Made by a program: the position numbers and the translations under genes
Assembly: GCA_009843735.1 (NCBI GenBank)
Contig: VYCW01000107.1
Coordinates: forward strand, 1 to 36,419
DNA from: Acidimicrobiaceae bacterium
GTDB lineage: Bacteria; Actinomycetota; Acidimicrobiia; Acidimicrobiales; Aldehydirespiratoraceae
Length of the DNA stretch: 36,419 nucleotides
Direction of reading: 5' to 3'
Notes under the pieces: generated by a model
The model's input: the letters and a program-made list of their open reading frames with translations, nothing else
Told to the model about the DNA's origin: nothing
Database searches by the model: none
Part shown: one piece after another, positions 3,595 to 11,008 of the stretch
Layout: each line of letters opens with the position of its first letter
Numbering within the stretch: the first letter of the stretch is position 1

Positions 3595-4392
3595 TCACAG
3601 CCCTGGCGCCATACCGCCCGCGATCGGGATGCTCACCCCAGTCAGGTAGCGCCCCTCGGGACCGACCAGGAAGGCCACCACGCCGGCCACCTCTTCTGGC
3701 TCGCAGGAGTAACCGAGCGGGATGAAGCTGACCTCCAGCTCTTCTGCCTCCTCGTACGACAGCCCGTGCATGTCCATGTGCATCTCCATGACCCGGGCGT
3801 GCAGTTGGGTCCTGACCGAGCCCGGGCAGATGGCCACGCAGCGGATGTTGTCGGGGCCGAACTCCAGCGCGATGGCCTTGGTCAGCCCGATCACGGCGTG
3901 CTTGCTGGCGGTGTAGGGCGGCGGTATCCCGGCGATGGCGCCCAGCCCCGACATCGAGGAGTTGTTTACGATCACCCCGCCGCCGGCGGCCTGCATGTGG
4001 GGGATGACCGCGCAGCTGAACCGGTTGACCCCCATGAGGTTGACCGCCAGGGTCTGCGACCAGATCTCCTCGGAGTTCTCCAGCAGCTGGTGGCTGCCGA
4101 TCCCCACGCCCGCATTGTTGACCAGGATCTCCGGCGGTCCCAGCTGCTCGACAACTGTGGCCACGCAGGACTGCACCGAGTCACCGTCGGTGGCGTCAGC
4201 ATGCACGGCGCCGGCCCGTCCGCCCGAGGCCACGATGCCGGCCGCCCGCTCGGCCAGCTCGTCGGCCGTGCTCTCGAGGTCGACCAAGGCAACGGTCGCA
4301 CCGAGGCCGGCGAGCTTGGCGGCCACCGCCGCGCCCATGCCTCGCGGATGGGAGGCGCCCGTGACGATGGCGGTCTTGCCTTCAAGGCTCAT
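3595..4392 (-). CDS. SDR family NAD(P)-dependent oxidoreductase
   Basis: A 265-residue classical SDR. It has the glycine motif TGASHPRGMG, then NNAG, an asparagine in AVNLMG, a serine in NNSSMSG and the catalytic YTASK. It ends in LTGVSIPIAGG. The predicted role is NAD(P)-dependent alcohol/ketone interconversion on a pathway intermediate. GAGGAGG, which overlaps the stop of the upstream NTF2-like gene, lies 8 bases before the ATG and indicates coupled translation. It is fourth in the operon Rieske oxygenase, SDR, NTF2-like, SDR, AroM. Its long glycine motif resembles that of the SDR at 1969-2835 rather than that of its operon partner at 4821-5573. Confidence 0.93.
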   Translation of the reverse strand: MSLEGKTAIVTGASHPRGMGAAVAAKLAGLGATVALVDLESTADELAERAAGIVASGGRAGAVHADATDGDSVQSCVATVVEQLGPPEILVNNAGVGIGSHQLLENSEEIWSQTLAVNLMGVNRFSCAVIPHMQAAGGGVIVNNSSMSGLGAIAGIPPPYTASKHAVIGLTKAIALEFGPDNIRCVAICPGSVRTQLHARVMEMHMDMHGLSYEEAEELEVSFIPLGYSCEPEEVAGVVAFLVGPEGRYLTGVSIPIAGGMAPGL

Positions 4393-4405: not shown

Positions 4406-4792
4406 TCAAAGCTCGATGGCGTCGAACAGGTCGCCTCCGTCGAAGGTCAGCGCATCCCAATGCTCGATGAAGCGCCCGTCGGCGGCCTTCCGGAAGAAGT
4501 CGGCGGATCGGTAGGCGACGGTGTCGCCCGAGGACGGGTCGATGCCCTCGACCCGTTGCAGGATCACCTCCATGTCGCCGTCGACCATGGTCAGGATCGT
4601 TTCGCGCTTGAGGGACGTCATGGCCTGCTTGATCGCCTCAACCTCCTCGAACAGCGCGTCGGCGCTGGTCTCATACGGCTGGGTGTTGGAGTGATAGTCC
4701 GGGTGGAGAAAGGCCCGGGCCTCCTCGTAGCGGCCGTCGGTCAAGCACTCGTACAGCTGCTCGACGTTCGGCTTGGGCTTCTTGCCGGTCAT
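4406..4792 (-). CDS. NTF2-like / SnoaL-like small protein
   Basis: A 128-residue protein with the features of the NTF2-like cone fold: an N-terminal helix (NVEQLYECLTDGRYEEARAF), then HPDYHSNTQPYE, a long helix, and beta strands ending in FIEHWDALTFD. The family includes SnoaL-type cyclases, ketosteroid isomerase-like enzymes, hydratases and binding proteins, so the fold alone does not give the reaction. It lies between two SDRs in an oxygenase operon, which suggests a non-redox step such as isomerisation, dehydration or ring closure; that is inference. The ATG is preceded by GGAGAGGA, and the gap to the downstream SDR is 13 bases. Confidence 0.8.
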   Translation of the reverse strand: MTGKKPKPNVEQLYECLTDGRYEEARAFLHPDYHSNTQPYETSADALFEEVEAIKQAMTSLKRETILTMVDGDMEVILQRVEGIDPSSGDTVAYRSADFFRKAADGRFIEHWDALTFDGGDLFDAIEL

Positions 4793-4820: not shown

Positions 4821-5573
4821 TCACCCGCTCTCTTCGCGGACGCGGACGCCGGCCATGATGCCGCCGTCGATCACGAAGTCGGCGCCGGTGGCGTAGCTCG
4901 ACTGGTCCGAGGCGAGGAACAGGACGGTGTTGGCGATCTCGTGGGGCCGGCCGACGCGTTCGAGGGTGGTGATCTTGTGGGTGTAGGACGCCTCCTCCTC
5001 GATCATCATCTCAGTGTCGATCATGCCGGGGCAGACGCTGTTGACGCGGATGCCGTGGCGGCCCCATTCGAAGGCCGCGCTCCGGGTGAGGCCCCGCACC
5101 GCGAACTTGCTGGTGACGTAGGCGCCGACCTCGTCGGACGCGACGAACCCGTTCGCTGACGAGATATTGACGATCGAACCGCCGCCGTTGCGCCTCATGG
5201 ACTCGAACACGGCCCGCATCCCGAGGAACACGCCGGTCGCGTTGACCGCCATCGTCTGCTCGTACAGCTCCACCGATGTGCTCTCGAGCGGCGAGAACCG
5301 CGCGATCCCGGCGTTGTTGACGAGGACGCCGGGAGGGCCGAGGGTGTCCTGGCAGAACTGGACTGCAGCGGCCCACTGATCCTCGTCCGTCACGTCCAGT
5401 TCGAAGGGCGCAGCCGCGGGCCCGATCTCGTCGGCCACCGCCCGGCATGTCTCGGCGTTGATGTCACACACCAGGACGCGGGCGCCGTGCCGGGCCAGGG
5501 TCCTGGCCGACTCGGCTCCCAGCCCCCGGCCGGCTCCGGTGACGATGGCGATCTTGCCCTCAAGCTGAGTCAT
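4821..5573 (-). CDS. SDR family NAD(P)-dependent oxidoreductase
   Basis: A 250-residue classical SDR with all standard marks: TGAGRGLG at residues 12-19, NNAG, the asparagine of AVNATG, the serine of NISSANG, YVTSK and the closing GADFVIDGG. Length and motifs are typical of FabG-like dehydrogenases. It follows the Rieske oxygenase by 51 bases and precedes the NTF2-like gene by 28, so it is second in that operon. In such operons an SDR often oxidises the alcohol made by the oxygenase to a ketone. The substrate is unknown, but the enzyme class is secure. Confidence 0.94.
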   Translation of the reverse strand: MTQLEGKIAIVTGAGRGLGAESARTLARHGARVLVCDINAETCRAVADEIGPAAAPFELDVTDEDQWAAAVQFCQDTLGPPGVLVNNAGIARFSPLESTSVELYEQTMAVNATGVFLGMRAVFESMRRNGGGSIVNISSANGFVASDEVGAYVTSKFAVRGLTRSAAFEWGRHGIRVNSVCPGMIDTEMMIEEEASYTHKITTLERVGRPHEIANTVLFLASDQSSYATGADFVIDGGIMAGVRVREESG

Positions 5574-5624: not shown

Positions 5625-6893
5625 TCACGCCGAGACCGGCTCGGGCGTGCCAACCTGTTGGCGAAGCCGACGGACGTACCACCGCTGGAAGTCTCCGATG
5701 AAGCTCTCCTGGGGAGCTAGGCGACCGGGACGGTAGGCGCGCGACGTTGCACCCTGGTAGGTCCGCTCCCAGATCGGGAAGTCCTCGTCGTTGACCTCGG
5801 TGTAGAACTCGCACACCTCGTCGACGTCGTAGTCCCGCCCCTCCTCCGCGTCCTTGTCGACCAGCCACGTTGTCTGCCAGTAGACCTCGTTGTGAGCCGC
5901 CGGCCTGATGCTGAACATGGTGGCGTGGTCAGCCGACATGAACAGCGAGTCGAGCGGGTTGAAATTGGAGAACACCGAGGCGCCGTCGGACTCCGTGAAC
6001 CGGCCCATCAGCGGAGCCACCCGCTTACCGCCGATCGTCTCCGACTGGTAGCCGGGGGCCAGCGGGCCCCGCACAAGCCAGCGGAACTGCTCGGCTTCCT
6101 CGCCGTCCTGGACGACAACGCCGGTCACATCGGGGAGTTGGGTCAGAGCGGCCTCCCATTCCTTCATCTCCTGCTCTGCCTGGGCCTCAGCCGTGATCAC
6201 CTCCGCGGTTCGGGTGGCCGCGGCCGCTTGCCAGTAGGCCGGGGTGCGGGTCTTGGTGAAGTTGGGGTGCACGACAGGCACGTGATACGGGTCGATGGTG
6301 TTCTCCACGAGGGTCTTCCAGTTGGCGGTTGCCGGGAAGCCGTGGACCCGGATTACCTTGGCGTCGGCGATTCCGTAGTACTGAAAGAGCTCGTGGAAGG
6401 GCTGGTAGGCCGCGTCGAAGTCGGTAGGGGTGTCTGACACCGACAAGAAGATCAGGCCTTGGAACACACGCAGGTGGCACGGACGGAGGTTGTGGGCCTC
6501 CGGATCGAAGGTCTCGTCGAAGACCACTTCGAGACGGCGGGACTTGATCCGGCCCTCCAGGCTGTAGCTCCAGTTGTGGTAGGGGCAGGTGAGCTGGCGC
6601 AATCCCTTGGCGCTCTCGTCGCAGAGGCGGGCGGCCCGGTGGCTGCACACGTTGTAGAAGGCGCGCACGATGCCGTCGCTGCCCCGCACGACGATTATCG
6701 ACTCGCCCAGCAGCGACACGACCATGGTGTCTCCGGCGTCGGGAATCTGCGAGACGTGCCCCACGATGTACCAGAAGCGCTCCAGTAGCTCGATGTCCGC
6801 GGCCCACACGTCGGGATCGGTGTAGAACCCCGCCGGCAGCCCGTAGCCCGGCCGGTACTGCTCGAGGAGTGGACTGATCCGTTCTGACCTCAC
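5625..6893 (-). CDS. Rieske non-heme iron aromatic-ring-hydroxylating-type oxygenase, alpha subunit
   Basis: A 422-residue oxygenase alpha subunit. The Rieske 2Fe-2S ligands are C83, H85, C103 and H106 (CSH and CPYH). The mononuclear iron site is in ENTIDPYHVPVVH: bridging Asp201, ligands His204 and His209, with a late Asp (about 371, NDEDF) as the third. The family uses O2 and electrons to hydroxylate or demethylate substrates. The start chosen is GTG at 6893 because GGGAGGAG sits just before it; a TTG at 6962 would place the N-terminus over the -35 box. Promoter, operator and a second palindrome lie at 6913-6962. It leads a five-gene operon. No beta subunit, ferredoxin or reductase is nearby, so electrons must come from elsewhere. 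Confidence 0.93.
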   Translation of the reverse strand: MRSERISPLLEQYRPGYGLPAGFYTDPDVWAADIELLERFWYIVGHVSQIPDAGDTMVVSLLGESIIVVRGSDGIVRAFYNVCSHRAARLCDESAKGLRQLTCPYHNWSYSLEGRIKSRRLEVVFDETFDPEAHNLRPCHLRVFQGLIFLSVSDTPTDFDAAYQPFHELFQYYGIADAKVIRVHGFPATANWKTLVENTIDPYHVPVVHPNFTKTRTPAYWQAAAATRTAEVITAEAQAEQEMKEWEAALTQLPDVTGVVVQDGEEAEQFRWLVRGPLAPGYQSETIGGKRVAPLMGRFTESDGASVFSNFNPLDSLFMSADHATMFSIRPAAHNEVYWQTTWLVDKDAEEGRDYDVDEVCEFYTEVNDEDFPIWERTYQGATSRAYRPGRLAPQESFIGDFQRWYVRRLRQQVGTPEPVSA

Positions 6894-6895
6894 GT

Positions 6896-6903
6896 CTCCT
6901 CCC
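6896..6903 (-). promoter_or_regulatory. Ribosome binding site of the Rieske oxygenase gene
   Basis: On the minus strand GGGAGGAG is followed by AC and the GTG start at 6893. This strong Shine-Dalgarno sequence decides the start against the longer frame from TTG at 6962. Confidence 0.75.
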
Positions 6904-6912
6904 GGTCGTATG

Positions 6913-6938
6913 CTAATGTGGGTCTTGACCCATATTAG
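6913..6938. promoter_or_regulatory. Palindromic operator A, probable TetR site of the Rieske operon
   Basis: A 26-base inverted repeat with 12-base arms, CTAATGTGGGTC and GACCCATATTAG, around a 2-base centre and with one mismatched pair. It overlaps the predicted -10 region and start of transcription of the Rieske operon. Its half-site TAATRTGGGT and the 6 bases between GGG and CCC match the palindrome at 11014-11037 before the tetR gene. The binding protein is inferred from that match. Confidence 0.75.
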
Positions 6939-6962
6939 GCACGCGGAGTCTCCGCGTGTCAA
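6932..6962 (-). promoter_or_regulatory. Promoter of the Rieske operon
   Basis: Read on the minus strand, a perfect TTGACA -35 box lies at 6962-6957 and a TAATAT -10 candidate at 6937-6932 (spacer 19; CTAATA gives 18). The spacer is slightly long, as expected for a regulated promoter. Operator A covers the -10, and a second palindrome fills the spacer. Transcription would start near 6925, leaving a leader of about 30 bases that contains the ribosome binding site. Confidence 0.6.
6940..6958. promoter_or_regulatory. Perfect 19-base palindrome in the promoter spacer
   Basis: CACGCGGAG and CTCCGCGTG form perfect 9-base arms around a single base, lying between the -35 and -10 boxes of the Rieske operon and one base from operator A. 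No copy was seen before tetR or other genes, so it may bind a second regulator specific to this operon. Function is inferred only from position and symmetry. Confidence 0.55.
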
Positions 6963-7019: not shown

Positions 7020-8003
7020 TCATGCCAGCGTGCGATGGATCGCCGCGATGAGCTTGCCCGCGTCGGGGAGGTAGGCCTGCTCCAGCTGCGACGTGCTCGG
7101 CACGGGGATGTTGGGGGCCGCCACCCGCTCGATGGGGGCGTCCAGCAGGAAGAAGTTGTCGCCGGCTGCGGCCTGGGCTGCCAGCTCGGCGCCGAGGCCG
7201 CCGCGTATGCGGCTCTCCTCGATGATCACCAGCCGGTTGGTCTTGGCCACCGAGGCGAAGATCGTTTCAGCATCGAGCGGGACGATGGTGCGGGGGTCGA
7301 CGACCTCGACGGAGACCCCCTGCTCTGCCAGCGTCTCCGCGGCGATCAGGGCCTGGTTCACCATGGCGCCGAAGGCGACCACGGTGACGTCGCTGCCCTC
7401 CCGGCGGACGGCCGCCTCCCCGAACGGCACCAGATGGTCGCCGTCGGGTACATCCGATTCCGCGTTCTGGAGACACAGGAGCATGTGCTCAAGGAACAGG
7501 ACGGGGTCGTTCGAGCGGATCGCGGTCTTCAGGAGACCCTTGGCGTCGGCCGGGGTGGACGGCATGGCGATGGGCAGGCCGGGCGTCTGGAAGAAGTGGG
7601 TCTCGGTGGACTGAGAGTGGTGCAGGCCGTAGGCGAAGCCTCCGCCGGTGGGCATGCGGATCACCAGCGGCACCTCGTACTGGCCCTGGGTCATGTACCG
7701 CCACTGGGCCACCTGGTTCACGATCTGGTCGGCGGCCAGCAGCGCGAAGTCCGAGAACATGATCTCGACGACGGGCCTCATGCCCTCGAGCGCCGCACCC
7801 ATGGCCACACCGACTAGCGCGTTCTCGTGGATGGGGGTGTCGACAACCCGCTCGGTGCCGAACTCCTCGGCCAGGCCGGCGGTGATGCCGAGGTTGGAGA
7901 CCCTGATGTCCTCGCCGAGCAGGAAGACGCGGTCGTCGCGCTGCATCTCCTCGCGCAGCGCGTCCGTCAGGGCGTCCATGTACTTCACCACCGCCATGCT
8001 CAC
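7020..8003 (-). CDS. 2-oxoacid (acetoin/pyruvate-type) dehydrogenase E1 component, beta subunit
   Basis: A 327-residue ThDP-dependent E1-beta subunit. It begins with VVKYMDALTDALREEM and has LLGEDI, the essential Glu60 in DTPIHENALVG, which contacts the thiazolium-activating aminopyrimidine, and HHSQSTE at 128-134 where the family has HSQS. The C-terminal transketolase-like domain includes VVDPRTIVPLD and IIEESRIRGG. With an alpha subunit it oxidatively decarboxylates a 2-oxo acid, or cleaves acetoin, onto lipoyl. Its GTG start overlaps the upstream TGA (GTGA); an ATG six bases later is an alternative. It ends operon C. The beta-side active site looks normal, unlike that of its alpha partner. 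Confidence 0.93.
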   Translation of the reverse strand: MSMAVVKYMDALTDALREEMQRDDRVFLLGEDIRVSNLGITAGLAEEFGTERVVDTPIHENALVGVAMGAALEGMRPVVEIMFSDFALLAADQIVNQVAQWRYMTQGQYEVPLVIRMPTGGGFAYGLHHSQSTETHFFQTPGLPIAMPSTPADAKGLLKTAIRSNDPVLFLEHMLLCLQNAESDVPDGDHLVPFGEAAVRREGSDVTVVAFGAMVNQALIAAETLAEQGVSVEVVDPRTIVPLDAETIFASVAKTNRLVIIEESRIRGGLGAELAAQAAAGDNFFLLDAPIERVAAPNIPVPSTSQLEQAYLPDAGKLIAAIHRTLA

Positions 8004-9589
8004 AGCACCCCGGTCTCGGCCAGGTTCTCGAACACGTAGCCAGCGCTGGGCAGCTCGTCCTCCAGGGCCCGCTTGAAGGCGGTGTCGACCTCTTCACGGG
8101 CCGCGGCTCGGGCCGCCTCGACCGCGCCGGCGTCCATCGTTCCCCGCTGGATCAGGATCGCCTCGTAGCGGCTGATCGGATCCCTGCCCTTCCACTCCTC
8201 GACCAGGCCGTCGTCGATGTAGGTGAGGGGGTCGGCGTCGAAGTGGCCGGCGATGCGGCAGGTGACCAACTCCAGCAACACCGGTCCGTTGCCGCTGCGG
8301 GCCGCCTCGACGGCTTCGAGGGCCTCGCCGTAGACGAGCTCCACGTCGTTGCCGTCGACGCACTCGTTGGGGATCCCGTAGTAGCCGGCCCGGCTCCCGA
8401 CGCCCTCGGCGTCCGGGGGGAAGTGGACATCGTGGTAGCTGAACTCCACGACCTGGTTGTTGGCCACGATGATCACTAGCGGGAGGCCCCAGATGGCGGC
8501 CATGTTCATCGTGGCGTGGGAGTCCGGGGTGTTGAAGGCGCCCTCGCCCACATGGACCATTACCACCCGAGCCTGGCCGCGCATCTTGACCGCCTGGGCC
8601 GATCCGGCTGCCATCGTGAGGTTGGCGCCCAGGACGCCCGACACCCCGTGAGTGTTGTGCTCCCGGTCGCCGAGGTGTATGCCGCCGACGCCGCGGTTGA
8701 TGCCCGTCTGCCGCCCCATCAGTTCGGCCACGAGGGCGTTCATGTCGGTGCCCCGGCCGAGGTAGTCGCCGAACCCCCGGAATGTCGGGTAGAGGATGTC
8801 GTCTGGCTCGAGCGCGGCGGTGATGCCGGCCGAGATCGCCTCCTGGCCGGTGGCGGGGTGGGACATGCTCTCGCACCGGCCCCGCCTGATGAGCCTCATG
8901 TGCCCCTCGTCCAGGGCGCGGGCCCGCAGCATTTCGCGATGGAGGGTTCTCTGCAGGCCGGGGTCGTTGCTTGCGGGCAGGCGCTCTGGGCGTGGTCGGG
9001 ACTCCGGTCGGCTCATGGGCTCGGGCGCTTCGTCGACGGTTGGGAGCGAGTCCGGGGCTGGGGCGGGGCCTGCCGCCGCGCCGGCCAGGGCTTGCTCGAC
9101 GTCTGCCTTCGTGACCCGCCCCTTCGGGCCGGTCGCGTCCACATCCGACAGATCGATGCCGTGTTGCTCCGCAAGCCTCTGGGCCGCGGGGGTGGCGACA
9201 ACCCGCTGCGAGCCGTCGAGCATCACGACCCGCTCTTTGGACACGGCATCCGGCTCCGCGGCGACGGCGGTGCTCACGGTCGCAGGTACCCGCGCTGGCG
9301 CCGCCGAGCCGGCGGATCCGGGTGCAGTGCCGCGGGCGTCTCTGGCCGCCTCCGCGCTCTCGGCGATGACGGCGATCAGCTCGCCCGGTACTGCCTCGCC
9401 GCCCTCGTCGAGGCGGATGTCTATGAAGCCGTCGCAGACCGCCTCCACCTCGACCACGGTCTTCTCGCTCTCGACCATGGCGATGACCTGGTCCTCGACG
9501 ACCGCGTCCCCCGACGTCACCAGCCATTCCTGAAGGACCATCTCGCTGGTCGACATGCCCACCTTGGGCATGAGTACCTCTGCGCTCAT
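8000..9589 (-). CDS. Lipoyl domain - E3-binding domain - E1 alpha fusion (2-oxoacid dehydrogenase component)
   Basis: 529 residues with three modules. Residues 1-80 are a lipoyl domain (MPKVGMSTSEM; lipoyl lysine K43 in VESEKTV). Residues 131-168 are a peripheral subunit-binding domain (ATPAAQRLAEQHGIDLSDV, then TGPKGRVTKADV). Residues 212-529 are E1-alpha. Pro/Ala-rich linkers separate them. The E2 acyltransferase domain is absent, so this is not a normal E2. In E1-alpha the thiamine motif reads VGEGAFN (348-353) instead of GDG, though NN at 377-378 is in place; the family's YRxHG reads TFRGFG (269-274), so a His is missing. HTHG, GNDVELVYGEAL and AGHFDADPLTYID are recognisable. The protein probably carries its own lipoyl arm and docks E3. 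No E2 core or E3 is in the window. It starts 4 bases after the SDR stop. Confidence 0.9.
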   Translation of the reverse strand: MSAEVLMPKVGMSTSEMVLQEWLVTSGDAVVEDQVIAMVESEKTVVEVEAVCDGFIDIRLDEGGEAVPGELIAVIAESAEAARDARGTAPGSAGSAAPARVPATVSTAVAAEPDAVSKERVVMLDGSQRVVATPAAQRLAEQHGIDLSDVDATGPKGRVTKADVEQALAGAAAGPAPAPDSLPTVDEAPEPMSRPESRPRPERLPASNDPGLQRTLHREMLRARALDEGHMRLIRRGRCESMSHPATGQEAISAGITAALEPDDILYPTFRGFGDYLGRGTDMNALVAELMGRQTGINRGVGGIHLGDREHNTHGVSGVLGANLTMAAGSAQAVKMRGQARVVMVHVGEGAFNTPDSHATMNMAAIWGLPLVIIVANNQVVEFSYHDVHFPPDAEGVGSRAGYYGIPNECVDGNDVELVYGEALEAVEAARSGNGPVLLELVTCRIAGHFDADPLTYIDDGLVEEWKGRDPISRYEAILIQRGTMDAGAVEAARAAAREEVDTAFKRALEDELPSAGYVFENLAETGVL

Positions 9590-9593
9590 GGGG

Positions 9594-10364
9594 TCACTCG
9601 CCGGCCGACAACAGCATCTCGCACAGGCCGACCGACAGGCCCGCCAGCATTCCGCCGTCGAGCACCAGGGAGCTGCCGCTGATGTAGCGGCAGTCGTCGG
9701 AGGCCAGGAAGTGGATCGTGGCGGCCACTTCGTCCATCTCGCAGACCCGCCGCAGCGGGGTCAGGCTGTTGAAGGCGGCCACCTCCGCTTCAGAGTCGGT
9801 CTCGTCAGCGAGGGTCTCGGTGGCCACCGTGCCCGGCGCGACGGACACCACCCGGATGCCGCGGTCGCCGAGTTCGATGGCCGCGGTGCGGGTGACCGCG
9901 TCCACCGCCGCCTTGGATGCGCTGTAGGGGCCGTACTCGGGCACCGAGATGTGGGCCGCCAGGGAGGACACGTTGATGATCACGCCTCCGTCGTTCATGA
10001 CCGGCGCGCCGTGCTTGATGCAGTAGACCGTGCCCAACACGTTGACCTCGTGGTCACGGCGGAAGGCCTCGGTGTCGCCCGTCTCGATGGGGCAGTCGAA
10101 GTCCCAGACGCCTGCGTTGTTGACCAGGACGTCGAGGGGTCCTAGCCGGTCGCGTACCTGGCTCATAAGGGTCCGGACCTGCTCCTCGTCGCTGACATCG
10201 GCCCGGATGAATGTGGCTCCGAGCCGGCTGGCCAGTTCGGAGTGGTCCGAGCGGTTGCAGAAGGCGACGGCGGCCCCGGCGGCCAGCATGCGCTTGACGG
10301 TGGCGAGTCCGATCCCGCTGCCGCCGCCGGTGACCAGCACCACCTTGTCGTTGACTGAGAACAT
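9594..10364 (-). CDS. SDR family NAD(P)-dependent oxidoreductase
   Basis: A 256-residue classical SDR with TGGGSGIG, NNAG, the asparagine of HEVNVLG, INVSSLA, YSASK and SGSSLVLDGG. The start is the ATG at 10364 (MFSVNDKVVLVTGG), with AGGGA just before it. A longer in-frame extension would run into the tetR gene and has no SDR-like sequence. It lies between tetR (50-base gap) and the lipoyl-E1-alpha fusion (4-base gap), so it belongs to the TetR-led operon. A plausible role is making or consuming the 2-keto substrate of the E1 enzyme; that is inference. The N-terminus (MFS-) and glycine motif resemble the SDR at 15867-16661. Confidence 0.93.
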   Translation of the reverse strand: MFSVNDKVVLVTGGGSGIGLATVKRMLAAGAAVAFCNRSDHSELASRLGATFIRADVSDEEQVRTLMSQVRDRLGPLDVLVNNAGVWDFDCPIETGDTEAFRRDHEVNVLGTVYCIKHGAPVMNDGGVIINVSSLAAHISVPEYGPYSASKAAVDAVTRTAAIELGDRGIRVVSVAPGTVATETLADETDSEAEVAAFNSLTPLRRVCEMDEVAATIHFLASDDCRYISGSSLVLDGGMLAGLSVGLCEMLLSAGE

Positions 10365-10414
10365 TGCATCCCTGCTTTCTGAGCGATCAGGACCGGAACC
10401 CGAAGGCCGGCCAC

Positions 10415-11008
10415 CTAGGTCCCCACACCCTGCAAGAAGAGGTCGACGGCCAGTTCGGGAATGTCGTCCAGTTGGAGGGTGGACTCGGGCATCCAACGCT
10501 CGAAGATCAGGCCGCTGATCAGGCTGCGCAGGACGCGGGTCAACTCGGAGGCCGACCGGTCGGCGCGGATCTCTCCCGTCTCCTGACCTCTCCCGATGAC
10601 GACCTCGAGCGCTTGGTCGGAGGGGTCGACGGCCGGCAGGAGGGCCGCCACCTCGTCACGGTTCGGCCTGAGGGTCTCCCGGTACATGACTCGGGCGAAC
10701 TCCTCGATCTCGGCCGACACCTCGAGGTCCGTTCGCACTATCACCAGCAGTTGCTCGCGGATGGGCGCATTGGTAGGGAGCGGTTCGAGCGTCTCTACGA
10801 TGCCTGCGAACCAGGCCGCCACCGCCTCGCGGAAGACCTCGTGCTTCGATTCGAAGTAGTTGTAGATGGTGCCCTTGCCGAGGCCCGCGGCCAGGGAGAT
10901 GTCGTCGACCCGGGCTCCGTCGAAGCCCTTGGCTGCAAACTCGGCGGTGGCCGCTTCGAGCAGCCTGCGCCGATGCTCGGCTCTGGTCGCCTCAGTCACA
11001 CGGGGCAC
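10415..11008 (-). CDS. TetR/AcrR family transcriptional regulator
   Basis: A 197-residue regulator. The N-terminal helix-turn-helix covers about residues 10-55 (RRRLLEAATAEFAAKGFDGA, then DDISLAAGLGKGTIYNYFESK). The rest is the helical ligand-binding and dimerisation domain. Such proteins repress by binding palindromes as dimers and let go when a small molecule binds. The GTG start at 11008 lies only 6 bases after a CATAAT -10 box, so the mRNA is probably leaderless. A 24-base palindrome at 11014-11037 covers the promoter and is repeated at 6913-6938 before the Rieske operon. This indicates self-control plus control of that operon. It is the first gene of the operon tetR, SDR, lipoyl-E1-alpha, E1-beta. 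The inducer is unknown. Confidence 0.93.
   Translation of the reverse strand: MPRVTEATRAEHRRRLLEAATAEFAAKGFDGARVDDISLAAGLGKGTIYNYFESKHEVFREAVAAWFAGIVETLEPLPTNAPIREQLLVIVRTDLEVSAEIEEFARVMYRETLRPNRDEVAALLPAVDPSDQALEVVIGRGQETGEIRADRSASELTRVLRSLISGLIFERWMPESTLQLDDIPELAVDLFLQGVGT

Follow-up and report, generated by a model that had tools for sequence, protein, structure and literature searches.

The window analysed here is a stretch of 36,419 nucleotides from an Acidimicrobiaceae bacterium (assembly GCA_009843735.1, contig VYCW01000107.1, positions 1 to 36,419). The gene in question, on its minus strand, is one open frame from ATG to stop that joins a lipoyl domain and a peripheral subunit-binding domain (PSBD) to the alpha subunit of an E1 component (E1-alpha). 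Its parts and its E1-beta partner are as follows, with constraint given as the ratio of nonsynonymous to synonymous substitution rates (dN/dS).

8000..9589, minus strand: fused gene, lipoyl domain-linker-PSBD-linker-E1-alpha, 529 aa (frame, Pfam and alignment)
9350..9589, minus strand: lipoyl domain, residues 1-80 (PF00364, 8.3e-10; dN/dS 0.14)
9461..9463, minus strand: codon of K43 in ESEK, the predicted lipoylation site, identical in 7/7 fused proteins
9215..9349, minus strand: linker 1, Ala/Pro-rich, 19-47 aa across the seven relatives (dN/dS 0.72)
9095..9202, minus strand: PSBD (E3-binding) (PF02817, 2e-16; dN/dS 0.19 for residues 126-172)
9179..9181, minus strand: codon of Q137, where all 20 other aligned PSBD rows have Arg (alignment)
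8969..9073, minus strand: linker 2, 7-35 aa across the seven relatives, with an in-frame ATG at residue 192 (alignment, dN/dS)
8003..8968, minus strand: E1-alpha catalytic part, residues 208-529 (PF00676, 2.1e-53)
7020..8003, minus strand: E1-beta, 327 aa (NF006667, 330.3 bits with a cut-off of 321; Transket_pyr and Transketolase_C)

In the Pfam scan, the 529-residue protein matched Biotin_lipoyl at residues 4-75 (8.3e-10), E3_binding at 130-165 (2e-16) and E1_dh at 220-512 (2.1e-53), all over the Pfam cut-offs. The E1_dh score of 181.7 bits against a cut-off of 22 assigns the C-terminal part to E1-alpha of the thiamine diphosphate (ThDP)-dependent alpha/beta dehydrogenases, and the E1-beta frame overlaps the fused gene by 4 bases as the adjoining partner. 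The acyltransferase catalytic domain of E2 enzymes (CAT; 2-oxoacid_dh, PF00198) was absent from the protein in the same scan, so that it does not qualify as an E2 acyltransferase. K43 is the lysine of ESEK at the lipoyl turn, and this motif, identical in all seven fused proteins, together with the PF00364 score gives the domain the sequence of a lipoyl carrier. An initial annotation, made from the DNA letters alone, had described one frame with a lipoyl domain (K43), PSBD and E1-alpha and without an acyltransferase; the frame and the Pfam searches it had proposed bear this out, and the lipoyl domain with K43 in frame supports its claim of an own swinging arm. Among the 60 Protein Data Bank (PDB) sequences listed of 62 matched, none spans both halves of the protein, the best stretches ending by residue 222 or starting at residue 201 or later. 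In an AlphaFold model built on a 12-row alignment, the E1-alpha core was mostly good, the PSBD reached about 55-75 in predicted local distance difference test (pLDDT) score and the lipoyl part stayed below 50.

A pattern scan of a collection of species genomes gave 14 loci with a relative: six full-length fused genes, seven unfused E1-alpha genes and one E2. The six fused relatives all belong to metagenome-assembled genomes (MAGs) of Acidimicrobiia and are 80-91% identical to the window protein in the best segment. Within the family, the fused gene occurs in 7 of 51 genomes (window included), and the six other carriers are the same six MAGs by their matching contig positions. All seven lie in the window's genus, whose 16 genomes comprise seven with the fused gene, two with an unfused form (G759 and G760) and seven with neither. 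In wider searches, the own genome and G388 were the only full-length fusions among the matches listed for 395 Acidimicrobiia (better than 1e-20), the own genome was the only one among those listed for 396 Actinomycetota (1e-45), and the matches listed for 385 genomes in the same class as a Rhodospirillaceae MAG included none (1e-50). As a rule, at most three candidates per genome were scored in these searches, and weakly similar fusions would escape. Early-starting E1 matches in G792:C133, G192:C407, G757:C24 and G765:C1 were rejected as fusions, since in each of them E1-alpha shares its frame with neither a lipoyl domain nor a PSBD. Plasmid matches (60 of 684 records) each consisted of two pieces over about 2.4-2.6 kb, and E1-alpha and lipoyl-PSBD are separate operon genes where annotated. 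The concern that many proteins of this architecture might already be described found no support in the literature, as no described E1-alpha carrying a lipoyl domain and PSBD was found in the searches of open-licence PubMed Central (PMC).

The other concern raised at the outset was that a sequencing or assembly error had joined two genes. The relatives are MAGs and the assembly of the window's own genome (3.43 Mb) is 84.6% complete, which would leave room for such an error. However, seven genomes, six of them other MAGs with full-length relatives, carry intact frames with four lengths of the first linker and three of the second, always in frame, and the dN/dS resembles that of a working protein. 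We therefore reject this explanation, for which the remaining chance is negligible. Across the seven fused genes, the lipoyl domain had a dN/dS of 0.14, the PSBD 0.19 and E1-alpha 0.20, and the first and second linkers had 0.72 and 0.59 (the latter from 10 of 21 pairs). The lipoyl domain and PSBD are thus as constrained as E1-alpha, which fits what a working swinging arm predicts.

The two unfused congeners carry the same locus in the order TetR regulator, short-chain dehydrogenase (SDR1), E2 (lipoyl-PSBD-CAT), E1-alpha and E1-beta. Their E2 has 423 aa, with lipoyl domain, PSBD and CAT confirmed by Pfam in both (PF00198 at 2.9e-56 and 6.7e-55), and their E1-alpha is a separate gene of 324 aa. 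Parts shared with the window, other than the PSBD, are 79-93% identical (TetR 87%, SDR1 80%, lipoyl domain 80-81%, E1-alpha 80-81%, E1-beta 92-93%), and linker 2 of the fused gene takes the place that the CAT domain has in its unfused relatives. The unfused E1-alpha starts with MTTDQDLQ or MTIDQDLQ, and three fused proteins (L019, L020 and L021) read DQDLQ or DRDLQ right after the linker, which places the joint near the former E1-alpha start. Since two congeners hold the same locus as an ordinary E2-E1-alpha-E1-beta operon, the CAT domain has most likely been lost, and the fusion most likely arose by this loss and the joining of the remaining E2 to E1-alpha near its start. Among possible accounts of the sequences, CAT loss with the joining of two genes is the simplest.

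We also considered that the orthologous CAT had been relocated in the fused genomes, and rejected this. The CAT of G760 as a query retrieved its orthologue in G759 at 98% identity, and the seven fused genomes yielded no orthologue (best match 38%, to other E2s), an absence that is not absolute because these MAGs are 84-95% complete. Other E2 cores are retained in each of the seven fused genomes, with 3, 3, 3, 4, 3, 3 and 4 (own) PF00198 matches per genome, and the unfused ones have 5 and 4. In the unfused E2s, the CAT motif is DHRLVNG, compared with DHR..DG in 15 of the other motifs listed. The four matches of the window genome all lie on other contigs (C121, C92, C18 and C14), so that the proposed genome search for an E2 catalytic domain did find cores, though not the relocated orthologue. 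On C92, the E2 stands beside E3-like and lipB-like frames (named by reading of the frames). One of the four matches is a 1597-aa frame that holds both CAT and E1 domains and is OdhA/Kgd-like. In those portions of PMC10581250 and PMC7568260 that we draw on, Corynebacterium glutamicum OdhA is described as combining CAT and E1 without a lipoyl domain and using the lipoyl groups of AceF. Lipoyl arms that work in trans are thus an established feature in actinobacteria.

We hypothesize that the fused protein is E1-alpha with the leftover of a neighbouring E2 after CAT loss, and that its own arm serves another E2 core in trans; we favor this account slightly over its being wrong. Lipoyl-PSBD-CAT and E1-alpha would have become lipoyl-PSBD-E1-alpha, and the fused protein with E1-beta would form a ThDP-dependent decarboxylase or acyloin-cleaving enzyme. 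This E1 would reductively acylate the lipoyl group at K43 of its own tethered arm. Because the catalytic core of the neighbouring enzyme is gone, the arm would have to deliver its cargo elsewhere, and it may visit the acyltransferase core of another cellular E2, the one on C92 or a branched-chain-type E2, before a shared E3 reoxidises it. Of the routes the initial annotation had offered, the best supported is that an E2 elsewhere receives the acyl group, given the E2 cores elsewhere in the genome and the OdhA precedent in mirror image.

Several observations weigh against this account, beginning with its own later steps: architecture, conservation and the missing CAT are observed, while the acylation and the hand-over in trans are what we infer beyond the sequence. 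Identity to the unfused counterpart is only 54% for the PSBD, compared with 80% for the lipoyl domain. The trees leave the direction of change unproven. When the tree is rooted with distant outgroups, the unfused pair nests among the fused genes, the deeper forks having support of 95-100, and L020 is outermost in the midpoint-rooted DNA tree of TetR and SDR1. In the rpoB tree (20 genomes, less G758 and G781 with rpoB in two pieces), fused and unfused alleles are interleaved, with fused G755 and unfused G759 as sisters; from this interleaving, the alleles of the locus have probably moved between species. The outgroup-rooted protein tree would suit an ancestral fusion, from which the unfused genomes gained a CAT and split the gene. 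However, that rooting depends on a branch of length 1.34, a topology holding the seven fused genes together is not rejected (approximately unbiased (AU) test, p 0.115), and the domains of the unfused E2 follow the canonical order lipoyl-PSBD-CAT. In midpoint-rooted DNA trees built from the E1 genes or from all five parts, the unfused pair comes out as sister of the fused genes. An ancestral fusion seems to us very improbable.

Further points against the proposed trans delivery concern the PSBD, the E1 active site and translation. At one position of PSBD helix I, Gln is found in 7/7 fused proteins and Arg in the two unfused E2s and 18 other rows (one domain occurs twice). This Arg is, we assume, equivalent to Arg135 of the Geobacillus domain, a main E3/E1 contact. 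Because an Arg constant elsewhere is replaced in all fused PSBDs, direct E3 docking through the usual contact is doubtful, and with it the direct E3 recruitment claimed initially. The PSBD net charge does not separate the fused domains from the others, which range from -2 to +3 with several rows out of register. In E1-alpha, the GDG..NN motif that we take to bind ThDP/Mg is present as GEG..NN, a GEG that L029 and L106 share. E1-beta, which presumably supplies the catalytic Glu and His, has PIHE and HHSQ, and the residues beside these motifs are unusual. In comparison with 38 unfused rows of 68, the fused E1-alpha reads RGFGD in 7/7, with His at the Phe position in 33/38 unfused rows, and the His of PIHE occurs at that place in 0/38. 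Scores lie below the cut-offs of the pyruvate dehydrogenase (PDH) E1-alpha equivalogs (TIGR03181, 205.2 vs 411.35 bits; TIGR03182, 214.5 vs 393.85). The acetoin-type RGHGH, as in L121 beside an E2 annotated as acetoin dehydrogenase E2, is lacking, its type-defining role being assumed. As these motifs are unusual, the chemistry may differ. Finally, an in-frame ATG or GTG lies within linker 2 or just past the PSBD in 6/7 fused genes (ATG at residue 192 in the window), so a free E1-alpha without the arm may also be made; in L019, the first in-frame start past the PSBD is an ATG inside the E1 domain.

The unusual E1 motifs and a PSBD that is still recognised (60 bits) would also agree with an arm that has ceased to carry acyl groups for this E1, where the lipoyl domain and PSBD dock E1 to another complex or add arms to it, like an E3-binding protein. 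Yet constraint on the lipoyl domain equals that on the catalytic part, K43 is invariant and no core-binding domain was recognised. We consider such a docking role unlikely.

We arranged 75 E1-alpha/E1-beta rows by the E2 or lipoyl gene on the same strand within 4.5 kb: 38 had neither (some near contig ends), 18 had an E2 (five being plasmid operons labelled by hand), a lipoyl gene without E2 stood in 12 and seven were fused. L060 was left out of the 75-row tree as its contig is that of L019 again (114,417 bases in both), and L026, among the 12, breaks off at the edge of its contig and could be an ordinary E2. Of the 12, eight group in a single clade whose order is lipoyl-SDR-E1-alpha-E1-beta (L075, L079, L082, L088, L092, L095, L098 and, from the own genome, L066 at G000:C115, 7893-10905). 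Their free lipoyl proteins are stop-to-stop frames of 91-144 aa with the Lys turn intact, and L075, L082, L092 and L095 have a full E2 next door on the opposite strand. Because this clade is not sister to the fused clade in the tree, the likeness looks parallel. Descent of the fused gene from these operons of the same class was rejected in spite of their similar parts: the fused clade stands alone on a long branch, its place not settled but not beside them.

Individual loci show other arrangements. In G757 of the same genus (L191, 2175-4508), an 81-aa free lipoyl frame lies just ahead of a single frame with E1-alpha and E1-beta. Thermus thermophilus TTHNAR1 plasmid 4 (L136, 6036-8217) has E1-alpha, E1-beta and an 80-aa lipoyl protein beside TRAP transporter genes, with no E2 annotated in the 15 kb stretch that holds them. 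A Tritonibacter mobilis plasmid (L120, 4533-9850) carries E1-alpha, E1-beta, a 330-aa lipoyl-containing protein, an aldehyde dehydrogenase and, as a gene of its own, a 291-aa E2; this may be an E2 split naturally, with arm and core in different proteins. In the own genome, the E2 of L061 (G000:C121, 193-1698) has, between its lipoyl domain and its CAT, a tandem pair of PSBD matches (58.4 and 27.3 bits), and at the end of G000:C78 and the start of C18 (L065, L063) a 704-aa E1-alpha and E1-beta frame is followed by an E2 seemingly running from C78 into C18.

E1 operons with a free lipoyl protein and no same-strand E2 (the clade of eight, G757 and the Thermus plasmid), like a missing CAT beside a constrained lipoyl domain and PSBD, would agree with an oxidative enzyme independent of coenzyme A (CoA). 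It would turn its substrate into a free acid, the acyl-lipoyl undergoing hydrolysis or transfer to some other acceptor, so that E3 would receive electrons only. However, no thioesterase was recognised among the scanned operon proteins, other E2 cores are kept in all seven fused genomes, and four of the eight free-lipoyl loci have the full E2 on the other strand. We think this rather unlikely. The broader proposal of a 2-oxoacid or acyloin dehydrogenase without any E2 core, which would release the acyl group other than by E2 transfer to CoA and count the free-lipoyl operons as further independent cases, we hold to be a shade less probable still.

The genes around the fused gene and E1-beta in the window are as follows.

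10415..11008, minus strand: TetR-family regulator (Pfam), its position kept in the fused relatives and the unfused pair
9594..10394, minus strand: SDR1, directly upstream of the fused gene, coding start probably near 10364
5625..6962, minus strand: Rieske oxygenase, weakly GbcA-like (domain and family search)
4821..5573, minus strand: SDR2 (Pfam; comparison with the fused relatives)
4406..4792, minus strand: SnoaL-like protein, with a similar frame behind E1-beta in the unfused relatives
3595..4392, minus strand: SDR3 (Pfam)

The window E1-beta is 94-99% identical to its counterparts in the six fused relatives. No 2-oxoacid_dh domain and no E3 were found among 20 window proteins scanned with Pfam, in line with the operon read initially as having E1-beta without E2 or E3. 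Besides the Rieske oxygenase and the SDRs, P450, FMO, agmatinase-like, C45 and DMFA2_C-like genes lie nearby, and these neighbours suggest a catabolic region. The Rieske gene comes after E1-beta in 5/6 fused relatives (L020 ends before it). The Rieske-SDR2 pair stands behind E1-beta in fused genomes and does not adjoin it in unfused ones; since neither adjoins the unfused genes, they tell little about the E1 substrate. In L016 (10600-12072) and L018 (10572-11885), an extra opposite-strand frame (490 and 437 aa) lies between E1-beta and this pair, and in the unfused locus L145 an SDR2 relative (89%) is about 6.5 kb away at the edge. A literature search (open-licence PMC) on sponge Acidimicrobiia with Rieske enzymes found nothing.

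Compared with known systems, the fused protein shares with the acetoin and 2-oxoacid dehydrogenase operons (E1-alpha, E1-beta, E2 and often E3) its homologous parts and, in some, an SDR nearby, but those operons keep an E2 with CAT as a separate gene. Outside the locus, no match listed in the Acidimicrobiia search exceeds 43% identity to its E1-alpha. The NCBIfam model NF008854/PRK11892 (464 positions) likewise joins an N-terminal lipoyl domain to an E1 subunit, and the lipoyl part of the window protein aligns with positions 1-109 and the window E1-beta with 142-460, both below its cut-off; there, the fused subunit is E1-beta, whereas the window has E1-alpha and a PSBD. The E3-binding protein of mitochondrial PDH (protein X), which sits in the E2 core, also has a lipoyl domain and PSBD (1zy8_K and 6h60_A were matched), but the C-end of the window protein is E1-alpha.

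The E2 core is usually taken as the indispensable scaffold and acyltransferase of such complexes. Split and coreless forms at the same locus in congeneric species are a natural pair for asking what the core is needed for. Like the window protein, the actinobacterial OdhA/Kgd is an E1 fused to part of E2 that needs the rest from another complex, as far as the portions of PMC10581250 and PMC7568260 used here describe it. OdhA keeps CAT without a lipoyl domain, whereas the window protein keeps the lipoyl domain and PSBD without CAT, in an E1 of the alpha/beta type. This mirror image suggests that E2 parts may be shared between Actinomycetota complexes in either direction.

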